Origin: a virus
DNA length: 30,359 nt
Strand: one strand, 5' to 3'
IMG/VR virus record: IMGVR_UViG_3300037963_004459
Location: 523 to 30,881 of that record
In this document: piece after piece, positions 9,213 to 30,359 of the stretch
Position numbering within the stretch: the first letter of the stretch is position 1
Layout of the letters: the number at the start of each line of letters is the position of its first letter
Program-made: the position numbers and the translations under genes
The notes under the pieces: model-generated
The model's database searches: none
What the model saw: the letters and a program-made list of their open reading frames with translations, nothing else
What the model was told of the DNA's origin: nothing

Positions 9213-12200
9213 ATGACTGAAATAAGAAATAATTTTTTAAAAGGTCGAATGAACAAAGACCTTGACGAAAGGCTTGTACCTAAAGGCGAATATAGAGATG
9301 CTTTAAACATAGAAGTATCTACTTCAGAAGGTAGCGACATAGGTACTGTTCAAAATATATTAGGTAATCTTCGTGTAGATGATTCTGTTTTCACTACAGA
9401 TAATAATACGCCTTTTAAGTGCGTTGGCTCAATAGCAGACGAACAAAAAAATAGATTATTTTGGTTTGTTACGTCTAGAAATACAGATGCTATAATAGAG
9501 TGGGACGAGCTTCTTCAAACTTCAACGTTAGTATTTGTAGATGTAAATAAAAGAAATAGTAGAGCAGCTTTAAAGTTTACTGAAAAGTTAATAACAGGTA
9601 TAAACATTATTGATGACTTTTTGTTTTTTACAGACGGCATAAGCGAGCCTAAAAAAATAAATATACCAGACTGTAAGTTAGGTACAACTAGTTTAACAGA
9701 ACAAACTAGATTTTTTGTTAATGGTGTTGATAGAGGCAATATAACAGAAGAACATATAACAGTAATAAAAAAAAGACCTAGCAAGCCGTTATATTTTAAT
9801 ATAAATCATAGTGATGATATAACAGAAAAAGGTATATTTGAAAAAACTTTTCCTAGATTTTCTTATAGATATAAATACTCTGATGGAGAGTATTCTGCTT
9901 TTGCACCTTTTACCTCACCGGTTTTTAGCGCTAAGCATGCTAAAGATTTTAATGATCAAAACTTTTTTAGCAAAAAAGAAGGTTATAACACTTCAATGCT
10001 TAACACTATAGAGTCTGTTGAATTAATGGACTTTGTTCCTTCAGACATTCCTAATGGCGTTGTTCAAGTTGACATACTTTTTAAAAGAGAAGACTCTAAC
10101 GTTGTTTATACTGTAGCTAGTATAAAAGAGAACGATGAAGAGTTTAATTTACTAGGATCTACAATGGGTGTAAATGTTCCTGATAATTTTGTTCTTGACA
10201 GAGGAAGATATACTATAACTACTGAAAACATATATTCTGCTTTACCAGAAAATCAAATATTAAGATCTTGGGATAATGTTCCAACTTCTGCTTTAGCTCA
10301 AGAAATAATAGCTAATAGACTTGTTTATGCTAATTACAAACAGGGCTATGATGTTGGCAATACAACAGTAAAACTAAACTCTTCTTACGAAACTAGAAAC
10401 TTATTTAACTATGAAGCTGATGGACTTCCAAGTATAAAAGCTCAAAGAGATTATCAAATAGGTGTTGTATATGGAGACAAACAAGGTAGAGAAACACCAG
10501 TGCTAACTTCAAACAATGCCTCTGTAAAAGTGCCATGGTTTAGTAATAATGTTTATCAAGGTGAAGGCCCTAATTACTTGAGCTCTTTGCTATTAACTTC
10601 AAGCGTTCAAACTTCTATGCCTTCTTGGGTAGATTACTACAAATTTTATATAAAAGAAACTTCTGGAGAGTATTATAATTTATTGCTAAATAAACTTTAT
10701 ATTCCCAGCACTAGCTCTGAGTTTGAAAACGAAAACGATCACGTGTGGCTTGCTTTTAATTCGTCTGATATAAATAAAATAAAAGAAAACGATTATATTA
10801 TATTAAAAAAAGTTTCATCTTCTACTGAGAAGCCTGTTGAAACAAAAAATAGATATAAAATAATCGACATAAAAGAAGAAGCGCCAGATTCTATAGCTTA
10901 CGTGTATCTTAATTTAGCAACGCTTACTAACGCTGATGATGTTAATGGTGCTGTTTTAGCAGATGGAGTAGATGATAGCGGATTATTTACTGATTTTAAT
11001 AGAAGAATAGATAATACTACAGACACTTTGTTTATTAACACGCCTGCGCTTGAAACTGCTGGTTTTCCTAGATTAGATTTTATTGGAGGTTTTAAAGACG
11101 AGTATTTATATGTATCTTGGAAAAAAACTTCAGCTGATGGAACTGAAACGTTTTCCAAAAGATATAGAATAGTTCAACTAGAAAGCGGTGGTGGCGGACC
11201 TTTTCCAGCTAAGTTAGATAGAAAAATATCTAGACAAGATGCTCAGTTAGCTGTATTCGGAGATACTATCATTGATTATGCTACTGAAACTTCAGATAGT
11301 AATAAACTGCACGCAAACCTTACCGTTATTTTTGAGAAAAAAGTTATTAAAGAAGGTGAGGATTTTTCAGGATTATTTTTTGCTCAAATACTTTCTGATG
11401 AAGTTATAGAAAACAATTTAACAGCATTGAAAGCAAATCCTTCTTTAAATAAATTTATACAGGCTACTAATAGTACTTTTTGGTGGGCAGACAATCAAGC
11501 TGAAGGCACTGAAGGAGAAAGTGTCGGTGTTAGAACAGGCTATGACTCTCCAACGCCACAAGATCAACCAGCTTCTTTAACAGATGATCTTCAAGAAGCT
11601 AATGAAACTACTAATACAGAGCAATTTTGGTCTCAGCTAACTGTTAATGTAGATGCAAAAGCTATGTTTATTGATAACATGTACATGACAGCTGCAAACT
11701 TATCTGAGTCTAATTATGCAAAAAATGCTGGTCAAGGCGTTTTAGCAAATGAAGTTGTTTATTCCGAAGTACAATGGAACGTTACTGAAGACAGCGCCTG
11801 GGAGATAGATGCAAACACTAGCTGGTCTGATACAAGTTTTGGTGGTGATTGGGTAGCAAATATTAGAAACGCTATGCCAGGAATAATAACCGCTACACAA
11901 CAATCTGTAGATGGTCCTGCGGCTTGGAAAAAAGAAATATATAGCCAAGAGCTAGACGATGTTTATGGTAGTGAGCCTGGTGGAATATATATGCACTTAT
12001 CTTTTTTTGCTCCAGGAAAAGATTTACATGATGGATCTTTCGAAGGCGGTAATAGCTTAGAAAATGTAGATGTTAGCGGTGAAAATAGTATTGCTAGTTT
12101 ATTAAAAGGAATATGGGGAGGCGGTGCTTTTACGTTTAGTGATGGCTCAACTATAGAAGGCGAAAGGTTTATAGAGTTCGAAAGTAACTACCTAGGCGAT

Positions 12201-15200
12201 GATGCTTTAGGTGAAGCTCCTGCGCCTGGCGTTGGTAAAGGCTATGATTTAGAATATCAAGAACAACACGAAAGACAGTGGGACCCTACGTATTCACCTA
12301 ACAGCACTGAGCTAGATGATCCTTCAGAAGTAGACTTAGATCTTAATGATTTTGTTTCTAATTTAAAAATAGGTAGTAAATTTAAGTTTGAAGGAGACAG
12401 TGATGAAAACATATATACAATATTAGATGTTAGAATAAAACATATATATAATCATACTCCTTGGAGATCTAAGTGGGATTACACTGGTGATAGTATTTTA
12501 AGAGGAAATAATAGTGTTGAAGAGGCTGCGGCTAGCTGGGCACAAGCTAAGTTAAATAACAATGAAAATGTTGCTACTTTAGCTGAAGCTTTATGTAGTA
12601 AAATAAGAGACTTTGGTAAGGCTAACAATAGAAGAACTTGCTATATATTAAAGCTTGATAAAGATCCATCAGATGCTAGTTTGACAAACTTACTAGCAAG
12701 CACTGAGACAGATATAGATGTTAGTCTAAGTAAAAAAATACAATTTATAAATTCAAAAGCTCAAGCACAGTCTGGACTAGTTAGAAATGTATCAGGTGTA
12801 TTTGAAACAGAGCCAAAAGACTCTTTAGATTTAAACATATTTCATGAAGCTGGCCAAGCAATACCTAAACTATTACAAACAATAAATAAAGCTAATTTGT
12901 TTGCGCCTATAGGTTGTAGAGTTGAATTTGTTCAAGTTCCAGCAGCAAAAAGAGGTGATGTAATTATAACTAAAGATTTATTTATTACTGAGTGGGGAGA
13001 AACTGAAGACTCTAGACTATTTTTTACTGTCGATTCATTAGATGGTACAGGCGATGGATTTAACAATACAGATAATGAAATTGTAATAGACTATTTAGAT
13101 TCTAGAGTGCGGTTTTATAGACCTGACGGCAGCTTTACTACTGTTAGGCTTTTAGCCAATGATGACGATTTTTTAGTTGAAGGGTCTTCTTTTAGAAACA
13201 CGTTTGTAGTAGACAAAAATATAGACGCTAGTTTAGAAATGGGTATTAATTGGCATAACATATTTACATTTAAAAACGGTGTTGAGTCAAACAGAATACA
13301 AGATAATTTCAACGAGCCGTTTATTGGTAATGGACCTAGAGTTTCAACTATTGTAGAGGAGCCTTATGCTTTTGAAGAACATAGAAAGCACGGACTAATA
13401 TATTCTGGTATATATAACGCTACAACTGGTATAAACAATTTAAATCAATTTGTTGCTGCTGAAAAAATTACAAAAGATTTAAATCCAACATACGGTAGCA
13501 TACAAAAACTATTTACTAGACAAACTGATTTAGTAGCTTTTTGTGAAGATAGAATATTAAAGATATTAGCAAATAAAGACGCGTTGTTTAATGCTGATGG
13601 TAATCCTCAGCTCGTTGCTACAACAAGTGTATTAGGTCAAGCCGTTCCTTTTGTGGGTGAATATGGTATATCTAAAAACCCTGAGTCTTTTTCTTCAGAG
13701 TCTTATAGAGCATATTTCACAGATAAACAAAGAGGTGCGGTGCTTAGATTATCTATGGACGGTCTTACGCCTATATCTGACGCTGGTATGCACGATTTTT
13801 TTAGAGATGCTTTACCTGAAGCTGGTGTTTTATTAGGTCATTACGACGAGTACAAACAACAATACAATCTTACTTTAAAAAATTATATATTTGAAAACGT
13901 AATACAAAACTCATACGTTACAGAAGGTGAAGAACTTACAACCAGTACTTCTATTTTTCAAATATTACAAGGTGCTAGCTTAGAGTCTGGTATTAACTTT
14001 ATGCCTGTAGATATAAATCAAACGTTTTTATCTGGTGGAGACAATGCTCCTATACCAAACCCTAGTCTTACTTTAAATGTTACTGCTATTGAGTGGCCAG
14101 GTATTCCGACTAGTACAAGTACAATATATTTAGCTAATACTACGCCCGCAGTATATACTTATGAAATAATTGATTTAGCTTATGAAGATTATCTAGGTAA
14201 TATACAAGATGGTAGTATACAAACAAACGTAGGTGAAATGGTAACGGAAACCATCACGCCAGAAGAACCCTCTGCTTTTCCTAGCTATGTGAATTACTCT
14301 GGAGCCGATGATATAGCTACTTACGGTTTAAATGAAGATGATCTTGAAGAAAGCGATATAAATGGATCTATTAGCTTTGATCCCGATTTTTTTGGTACAA
14401 ACAATGTTACAGGTATTATATATAATTTGTTTAAGGCTAAAGATGGTAGTATTACATTTTATACAAAAACAGACAGCTTTACTGATAATAACTCTTCAGT
14501 AGCTACTCAATTTCCTAACGCAACTGATAACGGCGCTTTTTTTGGAGAAGAATTTCAAGTTATAGTAAAATATAGAGGTGAAAGAGACCCAAATTGGATT
14601 TATTCAAGTGATGGTAATCCTAGAATTAAAGTTACGTTAATTGATCAAGATGGAAATAATATTAGATCTTTTTTTGGCGGACAAGGAGCAGTTGCTAACT
14701 TAGAAATGGATTATTTTGTTACTGATCCTAGCCCTTTTTCAAGTCCAGCATTGTTAATACCTATTAGTTACACACATGGCGCGGTGAGTGATTACACTGG
14801 AGTAGATAATAGCGTAGAAATAAGTGATTCTACAGGCTATGATGGATTTTATGGTCCTCAGTTTGATGAAGCTTTAGGTGGCGACTATGACGACGTTAGC
14901 CTTCATGAAGCTGTAAGTTTAGGTAGGGTAAATAGTGTTCTCGGTTCATCAGATTGGCCTGCTTTTGGAGGAACTGATGAATTTGCTAACACGGTAACTA
15001 ACGCTATGTGTGGTACTTCTGGAATTACAGGCAATTCTAAAAGATATACTAAATCTAAGTCTGTTGGATTGACGTTTAGAGTTGCGCCTTCTCCAGCAAC
15101 AATTGGTCAAGTAGTAACTAAAATAGGTTTTAAAATAGAAGTCACAGGATGTCCATCAACTAGTAGATCTCGTGTGTGGTTTGAAAACGTTTCTATCTCT

Positions 15201-18074
15201 AGACTTAGACAATTAAACGTACCAGGATCTACTGGTGTTCAATTGGTAACTCAGACAGTGCCAGCTCCTCCCGATTACACTGGATATGTTGAAGGTATAA
15301 CAGATATTGTTAATCCTACGGCAGTTGGGTCAATCACGCAAACGTCTGGGTTGGCTTATGATGACTTTTTAGCTGCTTTTAATTTTACTACAGCTACTGA
15401 TAGTGAAGGAACTCCATATCCAGGTAATGCAACTCAACAGGTTGTTCTAATAGATACACAAGAAGAAGAAGAAGAATATGTAAACTTTTTAGAAAACGAT
15501 CCTAATTATGATTCAAGTTATGGAGATGAAGGTGGTATACCGCCTTGGACAGAGTGGTATTATAGCACGCCTTTTATTACATCTGGTCAAAATAATTTTA
15601 CAGCTTTTCACGACTCTACTGTCGGCGCCACTGATAATGATCAATCGCTAGCAGAAACGATAAGTCTACAAAGCACGTATGCTCAAAACTACTACGAGTC
15701 TAATCCTGGCTCTTGGGTAAATATACCAGCTGATGCTGGTGGTGGTCAGTATTACAGCGGATCTAATCCTTCTTCTTTTGGTGTTACTAGTAATGCTACT
15801 GCTAGTAGCTTAAGTTTTTTGACCGAAGGAGAGTACAGCACAGAAGAAGTTGTAACGCATCCTATGAACAATGTAAATATACCAGCCATGAACACGTTAA
15901 CCGGTATTGTGCAGCAACATACCTTAACAAACTGGCCTCAATTAATTACAGCTTCTGCAATTCAAGGTAATTCAAGTGGTTATATAAATATCGATCTTAG
16001 TAATAATCCGTTAATACATGGTAGGTATTATATGGTTGATTTAACAGTTAGTTTTTTAGATAATCCGCAAGCAAACTTTTTACATCATATAAATGAATCA
16101 GGTATAATTAGTGGAGAGTGGAGATACAATGAACACAAGGTAATAGCCAACAGTGTTGTTCCTTCTGGCATTGCAAGCGTTAACAACGGTTTTACTCATC
16201 TTGATGTTACTAGTGAAAACACTTATCCTGCTGGGTTTTTTGGACAAATATCCGATAATCCTAACAGTATATTATTTATGAGAGCTGAAAGAACTGAATA
16301 TAGTAGTAACGCTGATGTTTTAAGGGTAGTATTTATGGCGGATGAAAATGCTGAGGCAAGTTTAGATGAGTTTGTTATACAATTATTTTCAAGTGGAACT
16401 AACGGCGAATCTTTTGATATTAGCGAAATAAACATCGTAGATGTAACTTATACTGGCAACGGTGGTAGTTTTAACGAGCATTGGTCTTCTAGTAATCCTG
16501 TAGAAAATCAATTAACAACTAGTCTTGAACAGCCTTTACATTATTATAACGCTGGAGGTTGGACTTGGAATACTTACGATGTAGAAAGTTCTTTGAATAC
16601 TTCGGACACTTATGATCCTCAAGAATTTGCTATATCTCAAACTTTTCAAAGCAACGAACTGTCTGGGCCTTCTCAAGATGGTTATACTTTAGAATTTAAT
16701 ATTGATTCTGTTTTATTAGCTGATGGCGTGACTAATGGTACTCAGGGATCTCTTACTATAACTATTCAAAGCCAACCTATAGATGGAACTACTTATACCA
16801 TGCGATTAACTGGAGTAGACACTGCAGGTGATTATAAAGTTAATTTTAATTATCCAACAGGAGATAATGAATTTTTTAACGAAATAATTTTAAGTGCTTC
16901 TGAAAACTTTGAAGTTGAACTTATTGAAAGCTCTGTACAACCTCAAAACATATTAATTCAGCCTAGTGGAAACGAAGGTTTTTACGGTAAATTAGATTAT
17001 ATACGAATATTTAATGAAACTACTGTAGTAACGGCTGGAAATAGTGAAGGTTGGCTATTTACACAGATTAGTGACGAAGGCAACACTGTTAATGTCACTA
17101 CAGAAGGATTTGTTGGTTACCAAGACGAATCAATACAATTAATTGATGCTCCAAACGGCGTGCAAGTAAGCCAAAACGTAGATATAGAAGTAACTGAAGG
17201 CGAAGTATATAATGTTGTTTTTGAAGTCAATCATACTTCTGGAAACTTAGAAGTTTATTATATATACCAGCAACTAACAGATACTACTGCTTTAGGCTTT
17301 AGAACATTTTTGTTTCCTCCTGACGAAGTGCCTGAAACTTCTTTTGACTCAGTTATTTTTGATCAAAATCTAACTATAGAGACTATTGATTTTATTCCAG
17401 AAGGCTTTGGAGATAACCCTGATATTGTTGGTAGTTTAGTTTTAAGAAGCACAGGAGCAGACGCTGACGTAGCTGATATTGAAATAGCCTTAGACAATAT
17501 AACTATGATTCAAGTTTTTGATCCTGGTGATTTTGTAGAAAAAACAATATCTTATAGTGAAGATGTTAAAGGCTGGGTAAGCTTTAAGTCTTTTATTCCT
17601 GAAAGCGCTTTAAGTGTTTCTAAAAAATATTTTACAGTTAAAAATGGTGAATTATTTCAACACTACCATCAAAATAGTCATTATGGAACTTTTTACAATG
17701 AGCATTTTGAGTGTCATGTAGAACCTATATTTAATCAAGCGCCAGATACAGTTAAAACATTTAATACGCTATTTTATGAAGGTAGTCAAAGTCAAATTTT
17801 ATTAAAAAATGAAATTACATCTCAAGAATATAATCAATACCCGCATAGTGGATGGTTTTGTTACAGTATAACAACTGACTTAGAAGTTGGACAAGTTCAA
17901 GAGTTTATTAAAAAAGAAAACAAATGGTTTAATAATATAGTAGCTAAGTCTTTGCCTGCTAGCAACGATGAGGTTCGTTTAGATTTTGGAAAACTTTCAA
18001 CACAAGGAATAGGTACTATAGCAAGTTTACCAGAATTATACGGTGAAGAAGAAGAGGAAAACTTAGATTTATAA
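9213..18074 (+). CDS. Giant tail protein: propeller-like nozzle/stabilization protein with large insertion
   Basis: A 2953-aa protein. The start matches what I remember as the conserved opening of tail stabilization/nozzle proteins of marine and crAss-like phages: a KGRMNKDLDERLVPKGEYRD segment (about residues 9-28), then ALNIEVSTSEGSDIGTVQN. Such proteins form the distal tail tube, often as a beta-propeller, comparable in role to P22 gp10, T7 gp12 or the crAss muzzle. Propeller-like text runs to about residue 1555 (for example TRQTDLVAFCEDRILKIL near 1436 and ESYRAYFTDKQRGAVLRLS). About 1555-2775 is an all-beta, Thr/Ser/Asn/Gly-rich insertion with at least four blocks resembling carbohydrate-binding beta-sandwiches. 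The family's end resumes at about 2776 (KGWVSFKSFIPES, VKTFNTLFYEGSQSQ) and closes in an acidic tail. No catalytic motif or signal peptide was found. The next gene starts four bases later. Confidence 0.75.
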   Translation: MTEIRNNFLKGRMNKDLDERLVPKGEYRDALNIEVSTSEGSDIGTVQNILGNLRVDDSVFTTDNNTPFKCVGSIADEQKNRLFWFVTSRNTDAIIEWDELLQTSTLVFVDVNKRNSRAALKFTEKLITGINIIDDFLFFTDGISEPKKINIPDCKLGTTSLTEQTRFFVNGVDRGNITEEHITVIKKRPSKPLYFNINHSDDITEKGIFEKTFPRFSYRYKYSDGEYSAFAPFTSPVFSAKHAKDFNDQNFFSKKEGYNTSMLNTIESVELMDFVPSDIPNGVVQVDILFKREDSNVVYTVASIKENDEEFNLLGSTMGVNVPDNFVLDRGRYTITTENIYSALPENQILRSWDNVPTSALAQEIIANRLVYANYKQGYDVGNTTVKLNSSYETRNLFNYEADGLPSIKAQRDYQIGVVYGDKQGRETPVLTSNNASVKVPWFSNNVYQGEGPNYLSSLLLTSSVQTSMPSWVDYYKFYIKETSGEYYNLLLNKLYIPSTSSEFENENDHVWLAFNSSDINKIKENDYIILKKVSSSTEKPVETKNRYKIIDIKEEAPDSIAYVYLNLATLTNADDVNGAVLADGVDDSGLFTDFNRRIDNTTDTLFINTPALETAGFPRLDFIGGFKDEYLYVSWKKTSADGTETFSKRYRIVQLESGGGGPFPAKLDRKISRQDAQLAVFGDTIIDYATETSDSNKLHANLTVIFEKKVIKEGEDFSGLFFAQILSDEVIENNLTALKANPSLNKFIQATNSTFWWADNQAEGTEGESVGVRTGYDSPTPQDQPASLTDDLQEANETTNTEQFWSQLTVNVDAKAMFIDNMYMTAANLSESNYAKNAGQGVLANEVVYSEVQWNVTEDSAWEIDANTSWSDTSFGGDWVANIRNAMPGIITATQQSVDGPAAWKKEIYSQELDDVYGSEPGGIYMHLSFFAPGKDLHDGSFEGGNSLENVDVSGENSIASLLKGIWGGGAFTFSDGSTIEGERFIEFESNYLGDDALGEAPAPGVGKGYDLEYQEQHERQWDPTYSPNSTELDDPSEVDLDLNDFVSNLKIGSKFKFEGDSDENIYTILDVRIKHIYNHTPWRSKWDYTGDSILRGNNSVEEAAASWAQAKLNNNENVATLAEALCSKIRDFGKANNRRTCYILKLDKDPSDASLTNLLASTETDIDVSLSKKIQFINSKAQAQSGLVRNVSGVFETEPKDSLDLNIFHEAGQAIPKLLQTINKANLFAPIGCRVEFVQVPAAKRGDVIITKDLFITEWGETEDSRLFFTVDSLDGTGDGFNNTDNEIVIDYLDSRVRFYRPDGSFTTVRLLANDDDFLVEGSSFRNTFVVDKNIDASLEMGINWHNIFTFKNGVESNRIQDNFNEPFIGNGPRVSTIVEEPYAFEEHRKHGLIYSGIYNATTGINNLNQFVAAEKITKDLNPTYGSIQKLFTRQTDLVAFCEDRILKILANKDALFNADGNPQLVATTSVLGQAVPFVGEYGISKNPESFSSESYRAYFTDKQRGAVLRLSMDGLTPISDAGMHDFFRDALPEAGVLLGHYDEYKQQYNLTLKNYIFENVIQNSYVTEGEELTTSTSIFQILQGASLESGINFMPVDINQTFLSGGDNAPIPNPSLTLNVTAIEWPGIPTSTSTIYLANTTPAVYTYEIIDLAYEDYLGNIQDGSIQTNVGEMVTETITPEEPSAFPSYVNYSGADDIATYGLNEDDLEESDINGSISFDPDFFGTNNVTGIIYNLFKAKDGSITFYTKTDSFTDNNSSVATQFPNATDNGAFFGEEFQVIVKYRGERDPNWIYSSDGNPRIKVTLIDQDGNNIRSFFGGQGAVANLEMDYFVTDPSPFSSPALLIPISYTHGAVSDYTGVDNSVEISDSTGYDGFYGPQFDEALGGDYDDVSLHEAVSLGRVNSVLGSSDWPAFGGTDEFANTVTNAMCGTSGITGNSKRYTKSKSVGLTFRVAPSPATIGQVVTKIGFKIEVTGCPSTSRSRVWFENVSISRLRQLNVPGSTGVQLVTQTVPAPPDYTGYVEGITDIVNPTAVGSITQTSGLAYDDFLAAFNFTTATDSEGTPYPGNATQQVVLIDTQEEEEEYVNFLENDPNYDSSYGDEGGIPPWTEWYYSTPFITSGQNNFTAFHDSTVGATDNDQSLAETISLQSTYAQNYYESNPGSWVNIPADAGGGQYYSGSNPSSFGVTSNATASSLSFLTEGEYSTEEVVTHPMNNVNIPAMNTLTGIVQQHTLTNWPQLITASAIQGNSSGYINIDLSNNPLIHGRYYMVDLTVSFLDNPQANFLHHINESGIISGEWRYNEHKVIANSVVPSGIASVNNGFTHLDVTSENTYPAGFFGQISDNPNSILFMRAERTEYSSNADVLRVVFMADENAEASLDEFVIQLFSSGTNGESFDISEINIVDVTYTGNGGSFNEHWSSSNPVENQLTTSLEQPLHYYNAGGWTWNTYDVESSLNTSDTYDPQEFAISQTFQSNELSGPSQDGYTLEFNIDSVLLADGVTNGTQGSLTITIQSQPIDGTTYTMRLTGVDTAGDYKVNFNYPTGDNEFFNEIILSASENFEVELIESSVQPQNILIQPSGNEGFYGKLDYIRIFNETTVVTAGNSEGWLFTQISDEGNTVNVTTEGFVGYQDESIQLIDAPNGVQVSQNVDIEVTEGEVYNVVFEVNHTSGNLEVYYIYQQLTDTTALGFRTFLFPPDEVPETSFDSVIFDQNLTIETIDFIPEGFGDNPDIVGSLVLRSTGADADVADIEIALDNITMIQVFDPGDFVEKTISYSEDVKGWVSFKSFIPESALSVSKKYFTVKNGELFQHYHQNSHYGTFYNEHFECHVEPIFNQAPDTVKTFNTLFYEGSQSQILLKNEITSQEYNQYPHSGWFCYSITTDLEVGQVQEFIKKENKWFNNIVAKSLPASNDEVRLDFGKLSTQGIGTIASLPELYGEEEEENLDL
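13875..17537 (+). other. Insertion of CBM-like beta-sandwich modules in the giant tail protein
   Basis: This covers about residues 1555-2775 of the 2953-aa protein. Four blocks, about 1780-1995, 2217-2413, 2443-2601 and 2613-2769, each look like a jelly-roll of roughly 150-215 residues. Each closes with a hydrophobic-D/N-containing strand: SRVWFENVSISRL, ISEINIVDVTY, GKLDYIRIFN and ALDNITMIQVF. This ending and the preceding alternating strands are typical of carbohydrate-binding modules of the CBM4/9/16 kind. The blocks are too diverged for obvious DNA repeats. Boundaries are by eye and approximate; the sugar-binding role is inference. Confidence 0.5.
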
Positions 18075-18078
18075 TAAT

Positions 18079-19281
18079 ATGGCAAGTTTAAAAATAAATA
18101 AATTGTTGATGAACTTCAACGATATAGCTGAAGCTGGAGAAACTAGATCTTACACTATAAGTGGAGACGTTGGAGCTGGATTTGTATTTATGGTTGTAAC
18201 TGATACGGGCCAGTATTATGATTTTGTAACTAAAACATTTTCACAAGGACATACACCTCAAAAAATACTAAGAAAAACTTTATCTTCTAATTCATTTACA
18301 GGTAGCGTAGTGTTTCCTCAAGTTGCTGGTGAAGCTTATGACGTTATCGTTATCGCAGATCCTTCTAAAAACACAATTATTGATAAACAAGTTATAGTTA
18401 AAAGAATAAATCAACTAGGTAATGTAACTTTAACATTTTCTCCTGTTTCACCTGCCAATAATAGTTCTTATGCTACTTTACCTAGCAATGTTCAGCTTCA
18501 ATCTAATGTTGTTGGCTCAGGCTCTTCTTCTGCTGTTATAGACTGGACAATTGCTAACGCTAGTGGTTCTCACGGTTTGATAATAGACGATGTATTACAG
18601 TTTGAACTTACAGATTTAAACGATAAATGTTGGTATTATGAAACAACTAAAACTGTAAATGGAGCTACATCTAGTTCTAATTATGTAATATTAGATGATG
18701 TAGATGGTATTGCGCCCGGCATGACTATAGTAGGCGTTAGCTCTGGCAGTCTTGCGGGAACGCCTGTAGTTAAAAATCCTATAGACACTGGAAATAAACA
18801 ACTAGCACTTGGTGGCTCTGCTCAGAGTTTTGCAGATGGAATAACTTTAACATTTAGAGCTACTGGACTTGGCTTTATAAATACTTTGTTTTCTTGCAAT
18901 ATAGTTTCAAATTTAACATCTAGAATTACAGAGGTTACAACTACAACAAGACCTACTGGGGCTAGCACGACTGTAAACTTAAACGGAACTACAGGTATAC
19001 CAGGCGGAAATATAGCAACATATATTGGAACTAATGTTAATAACTCATCTGCTAACGCTGTAACGTCTGTTTCGGCAAGTGCCTCAGCAGGCAGTATGGT
19101 TGTGCAGCTTGCTCAAACATTTAAAGGTTTTGAGACGCTTACGTTTAACATAGCATCACCTAAAAGATTATGTTTAAGCGCATTATTAGAAGGTAATATA
19201 AGCGTTTCTCAAATGCCTAGTACTGACTTAACTATAAAAATGAACTTAGATACCTTGTTTACAATAGGATCTGCTAGCTAA
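18079..19281 (+). CDS. Beta-rich structural protein, possible tail fiber or decoration protein
   Basis: A 400-aa protein, nearly all beta by pattern, rich in Ser, Thr, Val and Asn and poor in charged residues. Residues 1-110 (FNDIAEAGETRSYTISGDVG and VVTDTGQYYDFVTKTFS) form a distinct first domain with strand-turn-strand rhythm, like an Ig or jelly-roll fold. The region from about 115 to 385 is lower in complexity, with Gly/Ser/Thr loops such as TEVTTTTRPTGASTTVNLNG and GIAPGMTIVG. The latter resembles a repeat motif seen in phage tail-fiber proteins. Lying between the giant tail protein and cargo genes, a fiber or adhesin role is the best guess. I do not recognise the family with certainty. 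There are no Cys-rich motifs, transmembrane segments or enzyme motifs. Confidence 0.5.
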   Translation: MASLKINKLLMNFNDIAEAGETRSYTISGDVGAGFVFMVVTDTGQYYDFVTKTFSQGHTPQKILRKTLSSNSFTGSVVFPQVAGEAYDVIVIADPSKNTIIDKQVIVKRINQLGNVTLTFSPVSPANNSSYATLPSNVQLQSNVVGSGSSSAVIDWTIANASGSHGLIIDDVLQFELTDLNDKCWYYETTKTVNGATSSSNYVILDDVDGIAPGMTIVGVSSGSLAGTPVVKNPIDTGNKQLALGGSAQSFADGITLTFRATGLGFINTLFSCNIVSNLTSRITEVTTTTRPTGASTTVNLNGTTGIPGGNIATYIGTNVNNSSANAVTSVSASASAGSMVVQLAQTFKGFETLTFNIASPKRLCLSALLEGNISVSQMPSTDLTIKMNLDTLFTIGSAS

Positions 19282-19287
19282 TAAATT

Positions 19288-19674
19288 ATGGCAATATATA
19301 GTATAACATTTTCAAATCCAATAACTAGAGAGTTACTTTCTGAAGGCGACTCTTTATTTTTTGCTATAAATTCTGATGCGAATATTACTAATACTGGTAA
19401 TATATTCTACATAGAAGATACTTTTAGAAACTTTGGAACAATCTTACAGTCTCCACCACCTTTCCCTCAGCCATCTGCTAATCAATTGTTTTTTGATTAT
19501 AGTGGAGGAGATATAAACGATATTAGTCTTGGCGACTATGTGCTAGCCGCTAAAGCAGGCTTAAATGTTTCTGGTATAAAAGGATATTACGCTAAAGTTT
19601 TATTTAAAAACAACTCAAAGCACAAAGCAGAACTATTTGCTATAGGCTCTCAAATACAACCTAGCAGTAAATAA
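19288..19674 (+). CDS. Small conserved virion protein with GYYAKVLFKNNS motif
   Basis: A 128-aa protein. The first 90 residues are beta-like, with a Pro-rich loop (LQSPPPFPQPS, about 51-61) and the phrase GDYVLAAKAGLNVSGIKGYY. The last ~30 residues, including GYYAKVLFKNNS, KAELFAIGS and a terminal SSK, match a motif I recall at the C-terminus of small structural proteins in many marine phages, close to the tail genes. Its function is not known to me. Its place six bases after the beta-rich protein suggests the two are co-translated and act in the same tail or fiber assembly. The gene is complete and uses the same codons as its neighbours. Confidence 0.6.
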   Translation: MAIYSITFSNPITRELLSEGDSLFFAINSDANITNTGNIFYIEDTFRNFGTILQSPPPFPQPSANQLFFDYSGGDINDISLGDYVLAAKAGLNVSGIKGYYAKVLFKNNSKHKAELFAIGSQIQPSSK

Positions 19675-22460: not shown

Positions 22461-25400
22461 ATGTACGAACTAAACGGTGAAGAAATAACTCTAGAAACAT
22501 TACAGAGTTATGCTAATGAATTTGGCATGGATGTAGACTCGTATATTGAGTTTATGAAAAAACAAGGTCTTGTGGAAAAGACAGAAGGTGTTGCTGCGAC
22601 CGATGCGGCTGTAACACCAACAACCGATACGGAGTCAGCGTCGGAAAATATTTTTTCGGAATTACCAGAAGTAACTAAAGAAGACGTAGGCTTAGGCGAA
22701 AGATACTTTGTAGACAGATTTAATAAAACTTACGAAGGAATAGGTTATAAAGCAACTCAAGCTACGTTAAATGAGGTCGAAGCAGCTGGCTTTCAAACAT
22801 CATTTATAGGTAGACTATTAAGCAGCGATGATAAAGAATACAAAGGCGATTTTCAAGACTTTGTTACAATAACATCACCTCCTGATGCAGATGGTAATAC
22901 TACTAAAAAAACAGTTAAAGTAGATAAAGATTTTGGCCTGCCAAGGTTTTTTATGGGTGATGAGACTGAAGAGGTTGGTGACATGCAAAAAATTGAAGGC
23001 TTAGGATTTAATTTTGGCGGTAAAACAGCACGTGAAATAAACGAGTTTATTCAGTCTAATTTAAAAAACTCAAATGTTAATCCTGAAACATACAGTTACG
23101 CTTGGAATATGGCTAACACAAAGCCTGTTGTTATAGACGGAAAAGAGAGAAAGCTAGACGACTTAAATCCAGAAGAGCTAACACAACATGTTGAAAATAT
23201 ATTTGCTGATATAATAGGGTCTGGTAATATTCCTGGTGCTAAAAAAATACAAGAAGATATAGAGCCTGAGATACAAAAGTTTAGCAATGAGCTTTTAGAA
23301 GTTTATAAAGAAAAAGTTGCTAGCGGAGAGTTAGACTATCAAGAAGCTACAAACGAATTTAACGAGGCTGTCAGCAAAAGATATGGCGAGCTTTTTGAAG
23401 AAAGCGATGAGTGGAAAAAGCTAACATCAACATTAGAGAAGGCTGTAGGAAGTAGATTTAATAAAGACTTTACAGATAAAATTAGAATAGAAGCTGAAAA
23501 CGAGCATTTACCAGACTGGGTTGCTAATAACTTTAGCGAAGACTTTGTTAGACAGGCTTATATAACTTCAAGAATAAAAATACCTAAAACAATAGATGAA
23601 ACTCAAATATTGTTTAGAGCTAGAGAGCTAAACGATGTTAGAGAAGAGATAAAAGAACTATCATTAAATCCAGAAGCTAAATACGATAGCGATGGTGAGC
23701 CTACAAACTTTGTTACTAATCAAGATAGAATAAATTATTTAGAGTCAAGAGAAGCTAGGCTAAATCAACTCATCGGTAACGACTTACTTCAACAAAACGA
23801 ATATCAACAAAAACTAAAAGATTTAAAAGTACCTTCAGCTTTTGGTAAAACAATAGACGATCCAGACTTAACTCTTGATGAGTGGCAAGGTATGTTAGGC
23901 GATCAAACTGTACAAATGATTGGCGCGATGTTTACTGGAGGTGGATCTACGTTTGTTCAAGAAGGTGGTGGGGCTGCTTTTGAAATATTAGAAGTTGAAG
24001 CTGCTAAAAAAATGAAAGGCATGAGCATTGAGGATTTTTTTGGTAAAGATCCCGATGATATTGAGGGCGTTAAAAAGAAGTTTAACTTAGACGACTCTGG
24101 AAACAAAAAGCCTACAAGCGAAGACATTGAAATGAAGCTCAAAGCGTTTAGAGAGCTACCATTTGAAGATATTATAGAAAACGGTAAAGTTAAAGTTAGA
24201 GGAAGAAAAAGTAGAATACAAGACGTTATAGACAGCGGCGAAGTTGACATGACAGAAGCTCTGTTTGTTGGTGGTATAACAGCAGGCTTAGATCTTGTAA
24301 GTACATTTTCAACATTTAAAGGCGCTACTAAGCTTATACCTAAAAGTTTACTTAGAGATATAGGAGGCGGAAGACTTAGTCAAGCTTATAAAACTTTTAC
24401 AAAGCCTACCAAAGACGTTTTAGGCAAAAAAGCTGCTTCACCTGCTAAAACATTAGCTGTTGTAACAGGTGTAGAAACTGGTACAGAAATGGCTCAGGAA
24501 GTAACTAGTATGAGCGGTGTTAAAGCTGCTACTGGATATTTTCCTTCAAAAGACAAAGCTTTAAAAAGAATTTATGAAGCTGGCGCTCAAGCGCTTTTGA
24601 CTACTGGTCCTATAACTGTAGGCGGTCAAATTGCTACTACTACTTTTAATGAAACAGTATTAACAAGGATAAAAGGTCTTCCTCAAGCTAGTATGCGTCA
24701 AGCTATAAACGCTAGAAAAGATCAGTTGAGACAGCAAAATGCTGCAGGTTTTATTACTGAAGATCAAATGTTAGATCAATTTACTGAGCTTGAAGCTATT
24801 GAAAACTCTATAGCAAAGCTTAAGCAAACAAACTTTCTTGATTTAAACGAAAGAACTAAGGTTGTTGAGCTGTTTAGAAAACTACAAGAAGAGCAAAAAA
24901 ATATTGAAAAACTAAACAAAGACGCTAAAGAAAGCAAAACTAGAATTGATGCTTTTGATTTATCTGGAAAACCTGGCGAAGGAGCAAACTTTAAGACAGC
25001 TGAAGAGTTGGCTCTTGAAGACGCTAGTGCTAATGCTAAAAAAATAAAAAACCAAATTCAAGAGATTTACATGCAAAACTCTCTTATTAGAAATGGTTTA
25101 AGAACAGCTGAGGTTATAAATAGTATTAAAGAAGGGCCTCTTAAAGACGTTAAGATGCGCGTTTTTGATGACGCTAAAGAAGCTAGGTATAATCTTGAAA
25201 TACTAGGTTTTGGTCAAGAGCAAAGTGGTAGATGGAGATTTAAAGGTAAGTTTCTTAAAATATCAGAAAGCGATTTAATAAACAGAATATTAAACGGAGA
25301 AGCTAATGCTGGATTTTTTAACATGCAAGGCCAGGCTAAAACCGGAATATTTGTTAAACAACACTTAAAAAATAAAATTAAAGAAGGTGTTGAAAACTCT

Positions 25401-28400
25401 TTTAATGCTATTCAACATGAAACTCTCCATGGATTATCTTCAGATTTAACTTTTGATCAGCTACAAAATATTACAAACGGTATTACTAAAGAATTAAAAA
25501 ATGGCGATGCTAAAATGCAAGCTGCTTTGAAAATAGTTGAAGATCAATTAAAACAATTAAAATTAAGCAAAGATAATAGAGTATATCACGACGAATTTTT
25601 AGGTTATTTGTCTGATGCCTTCCACATATTAGATATAGGCCAGGATTATTTAAGCAAAGATAATTCTTCTACTTTGTTTAATATATCTAAATACTTTCAA
25701 GCTGAACATCAAAGCTTACTTAACACTTCCGCGGATATAGTTCAAATGAATCCTGCAGATATTATAAGATTTATTAGAGATTTTAATTTAGGTAAAACAA
25801 ACGCTAATATATCTATGCCAAAGCCAAAAGGTGTAGATGCTCAAGAAGAAGTTAGGCCTGCTCAAAAACAAGGCTCATTATTAAGTGAACAATTGTATCA
25901 ACAGTTAACTCGAGACTTTGAAAACGCTGTAGAAGAATATTCTAGCTTAGTAAGTGAAGAAGAAGCTAAAACATTAGCTGCTAATATTGCCGCTACAAAT
26001 TTGCAGGGTGAAGCATTTAATAGAATACCTAAAAACTTACTAGAAGGTTTTACTCCAGAAGATCTTCAAGATGTTGTTGTTGATTTTATTTCAGATCCAA
26101 AAGTATTAGCTAAGAAAGGCGAAGAGTATAATAAGATAAAAAACAGAGGTGTTGTAGGCTTATTGAAAGGATATAACTTAGGCTTTGAAGGTGGTGTTAT
26201 GGGTTATCTTAACTCTAAACAAGGACGCTTTAGCATTTTTGATCTACGTTTAATAGAGTTTGTTAGAGCACATCCAAAATACGGTAATATAACTGTTAGT
26301 ACTACTCAAGAAGGCGTTACTGCGGCTATAGATCAAACAATAGATCCTTTAAACCCTGAAGATATATTAATACAGCAAGAGGAGCAAACACAACAAGAAG
26401 AGCGACAGTCAAGAGATGGCACAATAATGCTTCATGAGCAAGCGGAAAAAGCTGGTATACCTTTAACACCTGCTTTTGAAGAAGCTTTAAAACTATTCAC
26501 CGATCTGTATCAAGAAGGAAAATTAACTGAAACAGGTTTAAAAGACTTAAAAAAGAAGTTTCCAAAACAATACGATCAGATTTATTCTTTAGTTCAAGAA
26601 GCGTTTGGTGTTGAACCAAAGCCGGGCAACTTAACGCAGACTGATATTCAAAACAGCCAGCGAAAAATGCAAATTGCTACACCTACGTTTTTTAGAAAAC
26701 ATGTGTTTATGAAGCAGTACACTGCAGGTGTTGCTAAGGTTGACAAGAAAGGTGATGTAGTATTCGATAAAGACAACAACGTTGTTATAGACAAAGACAC
26801 TCAATACCTAGCTACAGGCGTTCCATCTGGACTACAAACTCAAAGAGTAACGCAAGCAAATAATATTAAAGCTGCAGAAGACTTGTTCTATGAAACTATA
26901 ATGCGTATGGCTGACAAAGGCCCTCAAAAAGGTAAATTAATACCTAAAAGGCCTAAAAACTTAGTTATTAAAAAGCTTAAAAACTTTAATGATAAGTTTT
27001 TTAATGAAAACATGGGTATTATTAGAGGTGAAGTTAATGTGAAGCAAAAACAATCTAACATGAGCCAAAAGCACAAAGGCATGCATCACATGATAACATT
27101 AATTATTATGTCTCAAGCTGCTAGGCAAAACATGGAGAAAGGTAGAGACTTTGACATGCTTGCTGATGGTTTACCTTCGTCTTTAGCTAGTGACTTCATA
27201 TACAAGCTAGATCCTGAACTATTTAAAGAGTTTATGGGTACGTATCAAGCAATAAACGACGTAATGGGTGTTTATGCTAATAACTATGACAAAAGTAGCT
27301 TAAAAGACGTTCTAAGAAACAAATTAAGCGCTGCGTTTAGTAATCCTATGATAACTAAACTAACAAACGTTCTTGATCCTATATACGCTCAGTACTCAGT
27401 TGATTTAGCTAAAGTTGAAAAAGGATTAATAACTGTTGAAGAACTACCTACATTAAATCAAACTTTAGAAGCGGAGTTAGTTCAAGATATTGTTTTATCT
27501 AATACTTTAGATATTCGTAATGACGACGGAACCAAAGCTCAGTCTATGGACGAGGTATGGTCTAACATAGGTCACGTTACTAAGATGAGACAGTCAACAA
27601 GTTTGTTTGCTGAACAACTAATAAGTGATTTTGGGCAGCAGAAAGGTTTAGAGTTAATTATTAAATACTTGTTACCTAGCGTTGTAGGATCTGGTAAAAT
27701 TGGTGACGGTAGATTTGACATTATAGACGGCGCTCTTGTTGAAGTTGGCGTTGAAAAAGCTGGTAGAAATAGAAAGAAGCTATTTAAAAACTTAGAAGAC
27801 TTTTTTAACAGTAATCACGGTATAAACAAATTGTTAGATGACTACTTAAACGTAGAATTAAAGCAAACAGCTAGGTTAGACAAAGATGGCAACCCTGTTC
27901 AACAAATTAGCGAGGTGTTTGTTGGTGATACTAAAATAAAGGTAAACACTACGCTTTTAGCTCAGTCTAGCTCTGGTATGCTAAACAAAATAAATAAAGA
28001 AAATGAGGCTAGCGTTAAAAATGAAAGTAAAAAGCAAGCTGAAGAAGCTATGCAGTACGCTGATGATATAATTAGATTTTTTAATGAAGCTAATTATTTA
28101 AACGATACTCACATGGCTATGATGCTTAACGGCTTAAACTCTGACATGAAGTCGCCTATGCGTAGAGCTGCTAGATTCATGTATGTTGTTGACGGTGTTG
28201 AAACTTATAAAAATCCAGGTCAAACCTTAGAGTACGAACACATGATACCAGCTCAGTGGCAAATGATGAGACATGTTGCTCAAGTTAGAGATGGTTCTTT
28301 AACTAAAGAAAATTTATCAGAGCTTTACGATCAATATACTGTAGCTATTATTCCAAAGATAATGGATTTAGTTGTTAAAAACTCTGGCTTTAACGCTACA

Positions 28401-30359
28401 ATGCAGCCAGGCTACGAAGTTGGACAACACTCTTCTGGTAGATACTACAACTTAAGAACGCTTGGTAGATCTAACATGTTTGCTATAAGAGAGCTAGATA
28501 CCAATAATATATTTGGAGAGTATCACCAAATGATGGCTGGAAACTTTGATTACAATTATAAAAATTATCAAAACGCAGATAAAGCTATAAATACAGCTCT
28601 AGCTTCTGAAGAAGTTAGAGGTATGTCAACTTTTGACTTTGATGAAACACTAATAGATAAAGGTGATAACTTTATTGTTGCTGAAAAAGATGGTAATAAA
28701 ATAAAAATAACTTCAGCTGCTTGGCCAATACAAGGTCCTGCTTTAGCGGAACAAGGTTACAATTTTGACTTTAGCGATTTTATAAACGTAAGAGGCGGTG
28801 TTGCTGGTCCTCTGATGACTAAGTTTAAAAATCAAATAGCTAAATACGGTATTGATAATGTGTTTATATTAACGGCTAGACCAGCTGAATCTGCTCCGGC
28901 TATTAAATCTTGGCTAGAAACTCAAGGCGTAAACATGCCTATAGAAAACATAACAGGACTAGGTAATAGTACTGGCGAAGCTAAAGCAATGTGGATGCTT
29001 GAAAAGTTTGCTGAAGGATATAACGACATGTACTTTGTTGACGATGCTTTACCCAATGTTAAAGCTGTCAAAAATGTTCTTGATCAACTAGATATTAAAT
29101 CTAAAGTAAGGCAAGCTATACCTTTAGCTAGTGAAGAAATAAGTAATACTTTCAATGATATATTAGAAGACGTAACAGGCATAGAGTCAAAGAAAAGATT
29201 TTCACAAACTAAAGCTAGAAAGCGTGGCGCTAAAAAAGGTAGATTTAGACTTTTTATACCACCATCACACGAAGACTTTATAGGATTGCTATATAACTTT
29301 ATGGGTAAAGGCGAAGTTGGCAATAAACACAAAGAGTTTTTTGAAAACACTTTAGTTAGACCGTTAAATAGAGCATATAAAGAATTAAACGCTGCCAAGC
29401 AAGCTATAGCTACTGACTATAAAAACTTAATAAAAAACTCTGGCGATATTAAAAAGAAGCTAAGACAAAAACTAGCTGATGGTGATTTTACTTTTGAAGA
29501 CGCTGTTAGAGTTTATCTTTGGGACAAGCATGGCTTAGATATTCCTGGCATAGCACCTACTGATCAAAAAAAGCTTGTTGAAGCTGTTATGATGGATCAA
29601 AAGTTACGTATGTTTGCAGAAGTGTTAAATGTAATATCTAAACAAGATGAGTACATAGCGCCTTATGACGGTTGGGAGGGCGGATCTATAAAAACAGATC
29701 TTAATGAAGCTATGGGTGCTACTGGTAGAAAAAAGTTTTTTGAACAGTTTTTAAATAACGCTAATACAATTTTTTCGCCAGAAAATTTAAATAAAATAGA
29801 AGCTGCTTATGGTCCTAATTTTAGAGAAGCTTTAGAAGACATGCTGTATAGAATAGAAACTGGTAGAAATAGACCTCAAGGTCAAGGCAGAATGTTAAAT
29901 AAGTTTATGAACTGGTTAAACGGCTCTGTTGCTAGCGTTATGTTCTTAAATATGAGATCTGCTTTACTACAGCAAATGTCTATAGTTAATTTTATAAATT
30001 TTGCCGACAACAATATATATGCAGCTGCTAAAGCTTTTGCTAATCAAAAGCAATACTGGAACGATTGGGCTTTTATATTTAATTCTGATTTTTTAAAAGA
30101 AAGAAGAAAAGGTATTGGAACAGATATTAATGGTAATGATTTAGCTAGATCTTTGCAAGATTCAAGAAACCCTATGGCTAAACTATTTCAAATGTTGTTA
30201 AGATCTGGTTTCGCACCTACACAAATAGCGGATAACGTAGCTATTGCTACAGGTGGATCTACGTTTTATAGAAATAGAATAAACTCATATTTAAAAGACG
30301 GGTTAAGCCAAAAAGAAGCAGAGCAAAGAGCTTTTGAAGACTTTCAAGAAATAGCAGAA
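22461..30359 (+). CDS. Giant polyvalent virion protein with zincin-like and HAD domains (3' end outside window)
   Basis: The frame is open from the ATG at 22461 to the last base, 2633 codons without a stop. The start lies two bases after the previous stop. The N-terminus (MYELNGEEITLETLQSYANE) resembles openings of giant proteins in marine phages. Likely layout: residues 1-470 helical; 480-700 helical with Gly/Ala-rich hydrophobic stretches (MIGAMFTGGGSTF, FVGGITAGLDLV); a zincin-like motif HETLH at 986-990; long helical regions to about 2050; a complete HAD motif set at 2059-2195; then a C-terminal part with NGSVASVMFLNMRSALL and TQIADNVAIATGGSTFYRN, which I recall as conserved in such proteins. 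Large multi-enzyme proteins of this kind are known as polyvalent proteins and are thought to be packaged and injected with the DNA. Injection is inferred from gene position after the tail genes and from size. No DxDGD RNA-polymerase signature was found. Confidence 0.8.
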   Translation, partial: MYELNGEEITLETLQSYANEFGMDVDSYIEFMKKQGLVEKTEGVAATDAAVTPTTDTESASENIFSELPEVTKEDVGLGERYFVDRFNKTYEGIGYKATQATLNEVEAAGFQTSFIGRLLSSDDKEYKGDFQDFVTITSPPDADGNTTKKTVKVDKDFGLPRFFMGDETEEVGDMQKIEGLGFNFGGKTAREINEFIQSNLKNSNVNPETYSYAWNMANTKPVVIDGKERKLDDLNPEELTQHVENIFADIIGSGNIPGAKKIQEDIEPEIQKFSNELLEVYKEKVASGELDYQEATNEFNEAVSKRYGELFEESDEWKKLTSTLEKAVGSRFNKDFTDKIRIEAENEHLPDWVANNFSEDFVRQAYITSRIKIPKTIDETQILFRARELNDVREEIKELSLNPEAKYDSDGEPTNFVTNQDRINYLESREARLNQLIGNDLLQQNEYQQKLKDLKVPSAFGKTIDDPDLTLDEWQGMLGDQTVQMIGAMFTGGGSTFVQEGGGAAFEILEVEAAKKMKGMSIEDFFGKDPDDIEGVKKKFNLDDSGNKKPTSEDIEMKLKAFRELPFEDIIENGKVKVRGRKSRIQDVIDSGEVDMTEALFVGGITAGLDLVSTFSTFKGATKLIPKSLLRDIGGGRLSQAYKTFTKPTKDVLGKKAASPAKTLAVVTGVETGTEMAQEVTSMSGVKAATGYFPSKDKALKRIYEAGAQALLTTGPITVGGQIATTTFNETVLTRIKGLPQASMRQAINARKDQLRQQNAAGFITEDQMLDQFTELEAIENSIAKLKQTNFLDLNERTKVVELFRKLQEEQKNIEKLNKDAKESKTRIDAFDLSGKPGEGANFKTAEELALEDASANAKKIKNQIQEIYMQNSLIRNGLRTAEVINSIKEGPLKDVKMRVFDDAKEARYNLEILGFGQEQSGRWRFKGKFLKISESDLINRILNGEANAGFFNMQGQAKTGIFVKQHLKNKIKEGVENSFNAIQHETLHGLSSDLTFDQLQNITNGITKELKNGDAKMQAALKIVEDQLKQLKLSKDNRVYHDEFLGYLSDAFHILDIGQDYLSKDNSSTLFNISKYFQAEHQSLLNTSADIVQMNPADIIRFIRDFNLGKTNANISMPKPKGVDAQEEVRPAQKQGSLLSEQLYQQLTRDFENAVEEYSSLVSEEEAKTLAANIAATNLQGEAFNRIPKNLLEGFTPEDLQDVVVDFISDPKVLAKKGEEYNKIKNRGVVGLLKGYNLGFEGGVMGYLNSKQGRFSIFDLRLIEFVRAHPKYGNITVSTTQEGVTAAIDQTIDPLNPEDILIQQEEQTQQEERQSRDGTIMLHEQAEKAGIPLTPAFEEALKLFTDLYQEGKLTETGLKDLKKKFPKQYDQIYSLVQEAFGVEPKPGNLTQTDIQNSQRKMQIATPTFFRKHVFMKQYTAGVAKVDKKGDVVFDKDNNVVIDKDTQYLATGVPSGLQTQRVTQANNIKAAEDLFYETIMRMADKGPQKGKLIPKRPKNLVIKKLKNFNDKFFNENMGIIRGEVNVKQKQSNMSQKHKGMHHMITLIIMSQAARQNMEKGRDFDMLADGLPSSLASDFIYKLDPELFKEFMGTYQAINDVMGVYANNYDKSSLKDVLRNKLSAAFSNPMITKLTNVLDPIYAQYSVDLAKVEKGLITVEELPTLNQTLEAELVQDIVLSNTLDIRNDDGTKAQSMDEVWSNIGHVTKMRQSTSLFAEQLISDFGQQKGLELIIKYLLPSVVGSGKIGDGRFDIIDGALVEVGVEKAGRNRKKLFKNLEDFFNSNHGINKLLDDYLNVELKQTARLDKDGNPVQQISEVFVGDTKIKVNTTLLAQSSSGMLNKINKENEASVKNESKKQAEEAMQYADDIIRFFNEANYLNDTHMAMMLNGLNSDMKSPMRRAARFMYVVDGVETYKNPGQTLEYEHMIPAQWQMMRHVAQVRDGSLTKENLSELYDQYTVAIIPKIMDLVVKNSGFNATMQPGYEVGQHSSGRYYNLRTLGRSNMFAIRELDTNNIFGEYHQMMAGNFDYNYKNYQNADKAINTALASEEVRGMSTFDFDETLIDKGDNFIVAEKDGNKIKITSAAWPIQGPALAEQGYNFDFSDFINVRGGVAGPLMTKFKNQIAKYGIDNVFILTARPAESAPAIKSWLETQGVNMPIENITGLGNSTGEAKAMWMLEKFAEGYNDMYFVDDALPNVKAVKNVLDQLDIKSKVRQAIPLASEEISNTFNDILEDVTGIESKKRFSQTKARKRGAKKGRFRLFIPPSHEDFIGLLYNFMGKGEVGNKHKEFFENTLVRPLNRAYKELNAAKQAIATDYKNLIKNSGDIKKKLRQKLADGDFTFEDAVRVYLWDKHGLDIPGIAPTDQKKLVEAVMMDQKLRMFAEVLNVISKQDEYIAPYDGWEGGSIKTDLNEAMGATGRKKFFEQFLNNANTIFSPENLNKIEAAYGPNFREALEDMLYRIETGRNRPQGQGRMLNKFMNWLNGSVASVMFLNMRSALLQQMSIVNFINFADNNIYAAAKAFANQKQYWNDWAFIFNSDFLKERRKGIGTDINGNDLARSLQDSRNPMAKLFQMLLRSGFAPTQIADNVAIATGGSTFYRNRINSYLKDGLSQKEAEQRAFEDFQEIAE
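25398..25620 (+). other. Zincin-like metallopeptidase motif within the giant protein
   Basis: Residues 986-990 read HETLH followed by GL, the HExxH zinc-binding helix of zincins. About 55 residues on, YHDEFLGYLSDA contains Glu1045, well placed to be the third zinc ligand as in gluzincins. Preceding residues (NSFNAIQ) fit the hydrophobic start of the active-site helix. Possible roles are cutting host proteins after entry, or processing virion proteins. Confidence 0.55.
28623..29112 (+). other. HAD-superfamily phosphatase-like domain within the giant protein
   Basis: All four HAD motifs are visible in order. Motif I is FDFDETL with nucleophile Asp2059 and Asp2061. Motif II is ILTARP with Thr2138. 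A Lys suitable for motif III is at 2175 in GEAKAMWML. Motif IV is YFVDDALPN with Asp2194 and Asp2195. The spacing gives a domain of about 160 residues, and all catalytic positions are intact, so enzyme activity is plausible. Possible substrates include nucleotides, nucleic-acid ends or a phosphoprotein; the sequence does not show which. Confidence 0.8.

Follow-up and report, generated by a model that had tools for sequence, protein, structure and literature searches.

A chain of sandwich modules inserted in a crAss-type muzzle protein: a candidate host-contacting arm in a clade of short-tailed phages

The muzzle protein and its insertion

The window considered here, meaning the whole 30,359-base stretch that was analysed (bases 523–30881 of the 30,881-base IMG/VR record IMGVR_UViG_3300037963_004459), holds the structural block of a short-tailed phage, in which a terminase end, the portal and several virion proteins are followed by an open reading frame (ORF) of 2953 amino acids (9213–18074, + strand), and this in turn by genes of 400, 128, 361 and 556 amino acids and a very large ORF. 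Sequence profiles identify the 2953-residue protein as a crAss-type muzzle (nozzle) related to gp44 of crAss001, and within it lies a 1220-residue insertion that is the subject of this report. Three stretches of the protein match phrog_14478 ('virion structural protein', E 6.5e-131), residues 2776–2861 match phrog_18548, the Pfam family crAss_MUZ_C aligns with residues 2823–2909 at 26.5 bits, just under the cutoff of 27, and a family-core profile of 53 relatives aligns with crAss001 gp44 in hhalign (Prob 96, E 1.6e-9). A search of the PDB by sequence with the window protein gave only chance Rab5 or ribosomal matches and did not reach the muzzle chains. These profile matches bear out the original prediction, made from the bare sequence, that this is a nozzle protein with family-typical outer parts.

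Portal and muzzle each match 87 isolate records from the same genera, which, save for one environmental genome, are phages of flavobacteria (Flavobacterium, Cellulophaga, Tenacibaculum, Maribacter). The muzzle gene stands after the portal, capsid and ring genes, in the order seen in Callevirus and Elemovirus structural blocks, and together these two observations make a marine flavobacterium the probable host. The isolates closest to the window in muzzle and portal include Callevirus (Calle, phi38:1) and Elemovirus. Their muzzles nevertheless differ from that of the window in being 1,324–1,493 residues long, in having no insertion at the site described below, and in keeping fused a C-terminal segment that is split off here.

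The insertion (residues 1557–2776; 13881–17540, + strand) is flanked on both sides by conserved sequence in pairwise as well as multiple alignments. Before it lies a late β-propeller segment (residues 1351–1556; 13263–13880, + strand) that aligns with gp44 residues ~1054–1199, is 36–88% identical per 50-residue block and occurs in all muzzle ORFs of the family, so that it served as the anchor of the comparison. After it comes the conserved C-terminal segment (residues 2777–2953; 17541–18074, + strand) containing the crAss_MUZ_C match. In most relatives these two segments are directly adjacent, the motif YNLTL (ending at residue 1555) adjoining TISYSEDVKGWVSF (from residue 2778), and the borders originally placed at 1555 and 2775 were thus correct to within a few residues. 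The flank-to-flank distance was measured in 81 distinct muzzle ORFs, window included, and is bimodal: 1–49 residues in ~55 of them, which lack the insertion, and 934–1435 in 21, with four intermediate cases of 121–232 and a single one of 582. Homologs of uniform length with no gap at these borders would have refuted the original prediction, and the homologs are indeed not all of one length. Since these ORFs are the best-scoring of at least 580 IMG/VR relatives, the proportion of long forms is biased towards the query, yet the presence of an insertion of 582–1435 residues at the identical site in 22 of the 81 is not chance.

By profile alignment the site maps to gp44 residue ~1199–1201, after the IG2 domain, which ends at 1021, and, to judge from strands read by eye, falls where one strand of a late propeller blade gives way to the next. 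The published length variation of crassvirus muzzles concerns crass and IG2, at gp44 residues 318–1021 (Bayfield et al. 2023, PMC10172136), and the insertion therefore occupies a different site. Thus, while the window protein shares with crAss001 gp44 a homologous propeller core and C-terminal segment, a gene position behind a tail ring or structural gene, and a family in which length variation by insertion has already been reported, it departs from gp44 in carrying a chain of sandwich modules at ~1199–1201, outside crass and IG2. The same site is broken in an environmental genome (MW202828, our L018; 6001–12021), where the muzzle is cut into two genes: the first ORF runs on for ~310 residues and is followed by a 184-residue 'putative glycosidase' and then by an ORF starting MEHTLSYDDGVKGWTSF, from which it follows that inserts are repeatedly accommodated here. 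In the Maribacter phage Panino (L109; 14519–18432, minus strand) the propeller segment spans two annotated genes, and on this sequence evidence its muzzle is also split or interrupted, at a point other than the insertion site.

A tree built from the conserved flanks accounts for the long form with three changes, compared with a mean of 19.6 when tips are shuffled. All 22 long sequences fall, together with two short ones (L039 and L057), into a 24-member clade with a Shimodaira–Hasegawa-like approximate likelihood ratio (SH-aLRT) support of 95. Approximately unbiased (AU) tests rejected a clade of long sequences without both short ones (p 0.003) and one of long sequences plus L057 without L039 (p 0.012), while long sequences plus L039 without L057 were not rejected (p 0.147). 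The long form was therefore gained once and lost at least once within its clade, in L039, and the nested losses are probably two, so that the insertion is dispensable. In another relative, L046, all that is left of the insertion is the stretch aligning with modules 2–4 as defined below. A tblastn search of the phages collection with the insertion (E ≤ 1) gave no match, and scans with pieces of the insertion, or with the insertion of relative L016, recovered nothing beyond the query itself or one near copy.

Modules, fold and rates of evolution

All four block ends named in the original prediction are present in the sequence, and each closes a predicted β-sandwich encoded on the + strand. Module 1 (residues ~1740–2000; 14430–15212), interrupted by an excursion of ~130 residues, ends in WFENVSISRL (1989–1998) and is read from its strand pattern only, its AlphaFold2 confidence (predicted local distance difference test, pLDDT) staying at or below 67. 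Module 2 (~2245–2416; 15945–16460; pLDDT roughly 50–72) ends in ISEINIVDVTY (2403–2413), module 3 (~2440–2606; 16530–17030; mostly 70–90) in YGKLDYIRIF (2591–2600), and module 4 (~2610–2771; 17040–17525; 63–92), whose predicted sandwich resembles family 4 of the carbohydrate-binding modules (CBM4) and which is the most conserved module in the clade consensus, in ALDNITMIQVF (2759–2769). BLASTP detected no self-similarity among the four modules. AlphaFold2 modelling of residues 1577–2776 from 22 aligned sequences gave a mean pLDDT of 52 and was good only from about residue 2246 on; the fold comparison accordingly uses the second half of the insertion, remodelled as residues 2226–2776 with a mean pLDDT of 64, modules 3 and 4 being all β and mostly at 70–92.

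In a Foldseek comparison with the PDB, multi-domain proteins with jelly-roll domains rank first. Single-domain matches comprise the CBM4 structures 1ulo (template modelling score by target, TMt, 0.57–0.60), 1gui (0.53–0.55) and 3p6b, the CBM16 structure 2zex (0.51) and a porphyran-binding CBM (8xmz, 0.55), and the tandem CBM22 structure 4xup also matches. The CBM matches have probabilities of 0.92–1.00 and E-values of 5e-4 to 6e-3 (about 2e-3 for the single domains); their assignment to modules 3 and 4 is inferred from the pLDDT profile. Among viral proteins, the fold comparison picked out, for example, CBM-cenC domain proteins and a host-specificity protein of a phage. The best matches are thus separate sandwiches and not propeller blades, and the modelled second-half modules have a CBM-like fold, with no CBM match among sequence profiles. 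The original description of an all-β chain of CBM-like modules holds for the second half, with resemblance to CBM4, CBM16 and CBM22 and sandwiches of fair model confidence in modules 3 and 4; it does not extend to a Pfam CBM match, nor to the poorly modelled first block.

The two halves evolve at very different rates. For the window and relative L001 the synonymous divergence (dS) stands at ~0.27 both in the core and throughout the insertion, first half and second alike, and at 0.10 in the C-terminal segment. The ratio of nonsynonymous to synonymous divergence (dN/dS) rises from 0.10 ahead of the insertion to 0.66 in the first half, and falls back to 0.14 in the second and 0.15 behind the insertion (first half against core, Fisher p 1e-23). 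An independent pair, L024 and L025, gives 0.14 for the core, 0.63 for the first half and 0.25 for the second (Fisher p 2e-6). The acceleration is concentrated in residues 1601–2100 (14013–15512, + strand), where dN/dS is 0.5–0.93 per 100 residues at flat dS, against less than 0.2 in most of the protein. Distant clade members are 70–77% identical in the core and mostly 25–35% in the insertion. Two origins for the divergence were tried and rejected, namely a diversity-generating retroelement, since the base changes are not A-biased, and recombination with a distant donor between window and L001, since dS is flat. In the pair L016 and L028, dS drops to 0.48 in the second half of the insertion from ~1.4 in the flanks, which suggests recombination of modules 2–4 between lineages. 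A second fast patch, in the muzzle core (residues 556–750; 10878–11462, + strand), has a dN/dS of 0.38 overall and 0.65 at residues 601–700, and is perhaps another surface contact.

What the insertion may do

We lean towards reading the insertion as an extra host-contacting adhesion arm on the muzzle, with CBM-like modules that grip polysaccharide on the host surface. A chain of about four β-sandwich modules would project from a strand–strand loop of the late propeller blade, presumably outward and, by analogy with crAss001, in six copies per tail tip. Its grip on surface sugar might add avidity or hold the tail tip at the cell and let the muzzle open, so that sugar contact would be coupled to the gating propeller. 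The more conserved modules 2–4 could then supply the stalk and a generic sandwich with a general sugar grip, and the hypervariable first half could be the part that determines specificity.

Several lines of evidence point in this direction. The insertion, where present, always occupies one and the same site, and it has been lost within its clade; the fold matches are to CBM4, CBM16, CBM22 and a porphyran-binding CBM and, among viral proteins, to CBM-cenC and host-specificity proteins; the first half is fast in two independent pairs at equal dS; L046 keeps modules 2–4 only, and identity in the insertion is far below that in the core; and the MW202828 muzzle breaks at this very site, where additional domains and a 'putative glycosidase' intervene. 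There is also published precedent, in that the crassvirus muzzle tip has been proposed to contact the cell (PMC10172136) and evolved distal tail (Dit) proteins that carry a CBM insert help in adsorption (PMC9128512). The latter is the closest functional precedent, since in evolved Dits (for example Deep-Purple Gp28 and phage J-1) a CBM-like domain likewise sits within a conserved tail-tip hub protein with family-typical ends. The analogy has its limits: Dit is a hub protein of siphophages and has no relationship to muzzles, the flanks here are those of a muzzle, and one CBM of ~250 residues with shown binding stands against about four modules whose binding is putative.

Glycan binding itself is suggested by structural resemblance and rate data, and a number of observations weigh against it. 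A Pfam profile scan of the window insertion gave no family at all, neither a CBM nor a glycosidase, and the best profile match among the 22 long members is GalBD_like in one of them, at E 0.009. The Foldseek E-values are modest and jelly-rolls readily match one another, while the first half of the insertion is without a confident model. In addition, dN/dS does not rise above 1, and the share of residues changed is much the same for hydrophobic ones as for the rest (29% vs 32%), so that selection for change and relaxed constraint, which fits the first-half rates too, are not separated.

The main rival is a structural nozzle arm, in which the sandwiches unbend or stack and lengthen the tail at ejection with no sugar binding, and we regard it as unlikely. 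Its model is phage SU10, where four Ig-like (immunoglobulin-like) domains on a propeller straighten into a 28-nm nozzle (PMC9509320). The hexameric propeller nozzle protein gp17 of SU10 does carry a four-sandwich chain in one subunit, a module number similar to that found here, and the greater conservation of the late modules would suit a mechanical part; but its role is known to be mechanical and its domains lie between blades 2 and 3, whereas the present chain lies in a late propeller blade, a mechanical part should not evolve fastest in one half or be lost in nested lineages, and the single-domain fold matches are to CBMs. Rather less probable still is that the chain is a weakly constrained decoration, Ig or jelly-roll cargo at a permissive loop that drifts near-neutrally and is at most non-specifically sticky. 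A dN/dS of 0.65–0.93 that never exceeds 1, the nested losses and the wide length range of 582–1435 residues would all follow from this, yet 21 other long ORFs are without stops or frameshifts, and the C-terminal modules are under purifying selection (dN/dS 0.14–0.25) with motifs kept across the clade. It is very improbable that the chain carries an enzyme, a polysaccharide depolymerase or glycosidase, and does not consist purely of binding domains. The 'putative glycosidase' annotated at the site in MW202828 and the several fold matches to glycosidases containing CBM-type domains are set against the missing glycosidase profile match, the lack of a conserved unit of catalytic-domain size, and modules that are sandwich-sized and whose single-domain matches are CBMs, not barrels, propellers or β-helices.

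Even if the insertion is a host-contacting arm, it need not be the only one. The original prediction placed receptor binding on the nozzle instead of on separate fibers, and this is not supported, because a long-form relative, L043, has on its 65.9-kb contig (G001) the gene of a distinct tail fibre with a Peptidase_S74 chaperone domain. To judge from that relative, the insertion seems to supplement fibres and not to replace them, the window contig being a fragment. More tentatively, and with less confidence than in the arm itself, it can be proposed that this clade of uncultured marine phages, with kinship to podophages of flavobacteria, has made its muzzle a modular, fast-diversifying adhesin, with a glycan-binding chain at a new and recurrently used propeller loop, a variable half that helps set host range, and a ring-joining C-terminal piece that is now a separate protein. 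Crassvirus-type muzzles gate ejection of the genome; a fast-evolving CBM-like chain on the gating propeller would, if confirmed, link sugar recognition to gate opening. The insertion would be a sequence-defined, removable part with which such a link could be probed, and the clade includes natural forms with the whole insertion, with part of it and without it that can be compared.

The separate muzzle C-terminus and neighbouring genes

Directly behind the muzzle lies a 400-residue gene (18079–19281, + strand) with no family match, which stands between two muzzle pieces, measures 400–1200 residues in relatives and has a dN/dS of 0.34 between window and L001. The next gene encodes a 128-residue protein (19288–19674, + strand) that matches phrog_18548 at profile positions 195–236 and represents the split-off extreme C-terminus of the muzzle, being the counterpart of the last ~120 residues of the Calle, phi38:1 and elemo muzzles (the GYY..ELFA segment), which by eye also resembles the end of gp44. 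Iterative hidden Markov model (HMM) searches found this segment fused to the muzzle in L005, L065, L069, L100 and L019; in most relatives it is a separate gene, usually behind a structural-type gene of 400–1200 residues.

The very large ORF at the end of the window (22461–30359, 2633 residues, open at the window end) contains an HExxH motif (HETLH, 25416–25430) and the sequence FDFDETLI near 28626. It is ~27% identical to its L001 counterpart, while most upstream genes are 77–98% alike, and the two genomes thus diverge sharply at this point. In another relative with a long insertion, a GroEL-like chaperonin (L107:17193–18758, minus strand; phrog_5725, E 3.5e-133; Cpn60) was also noted.
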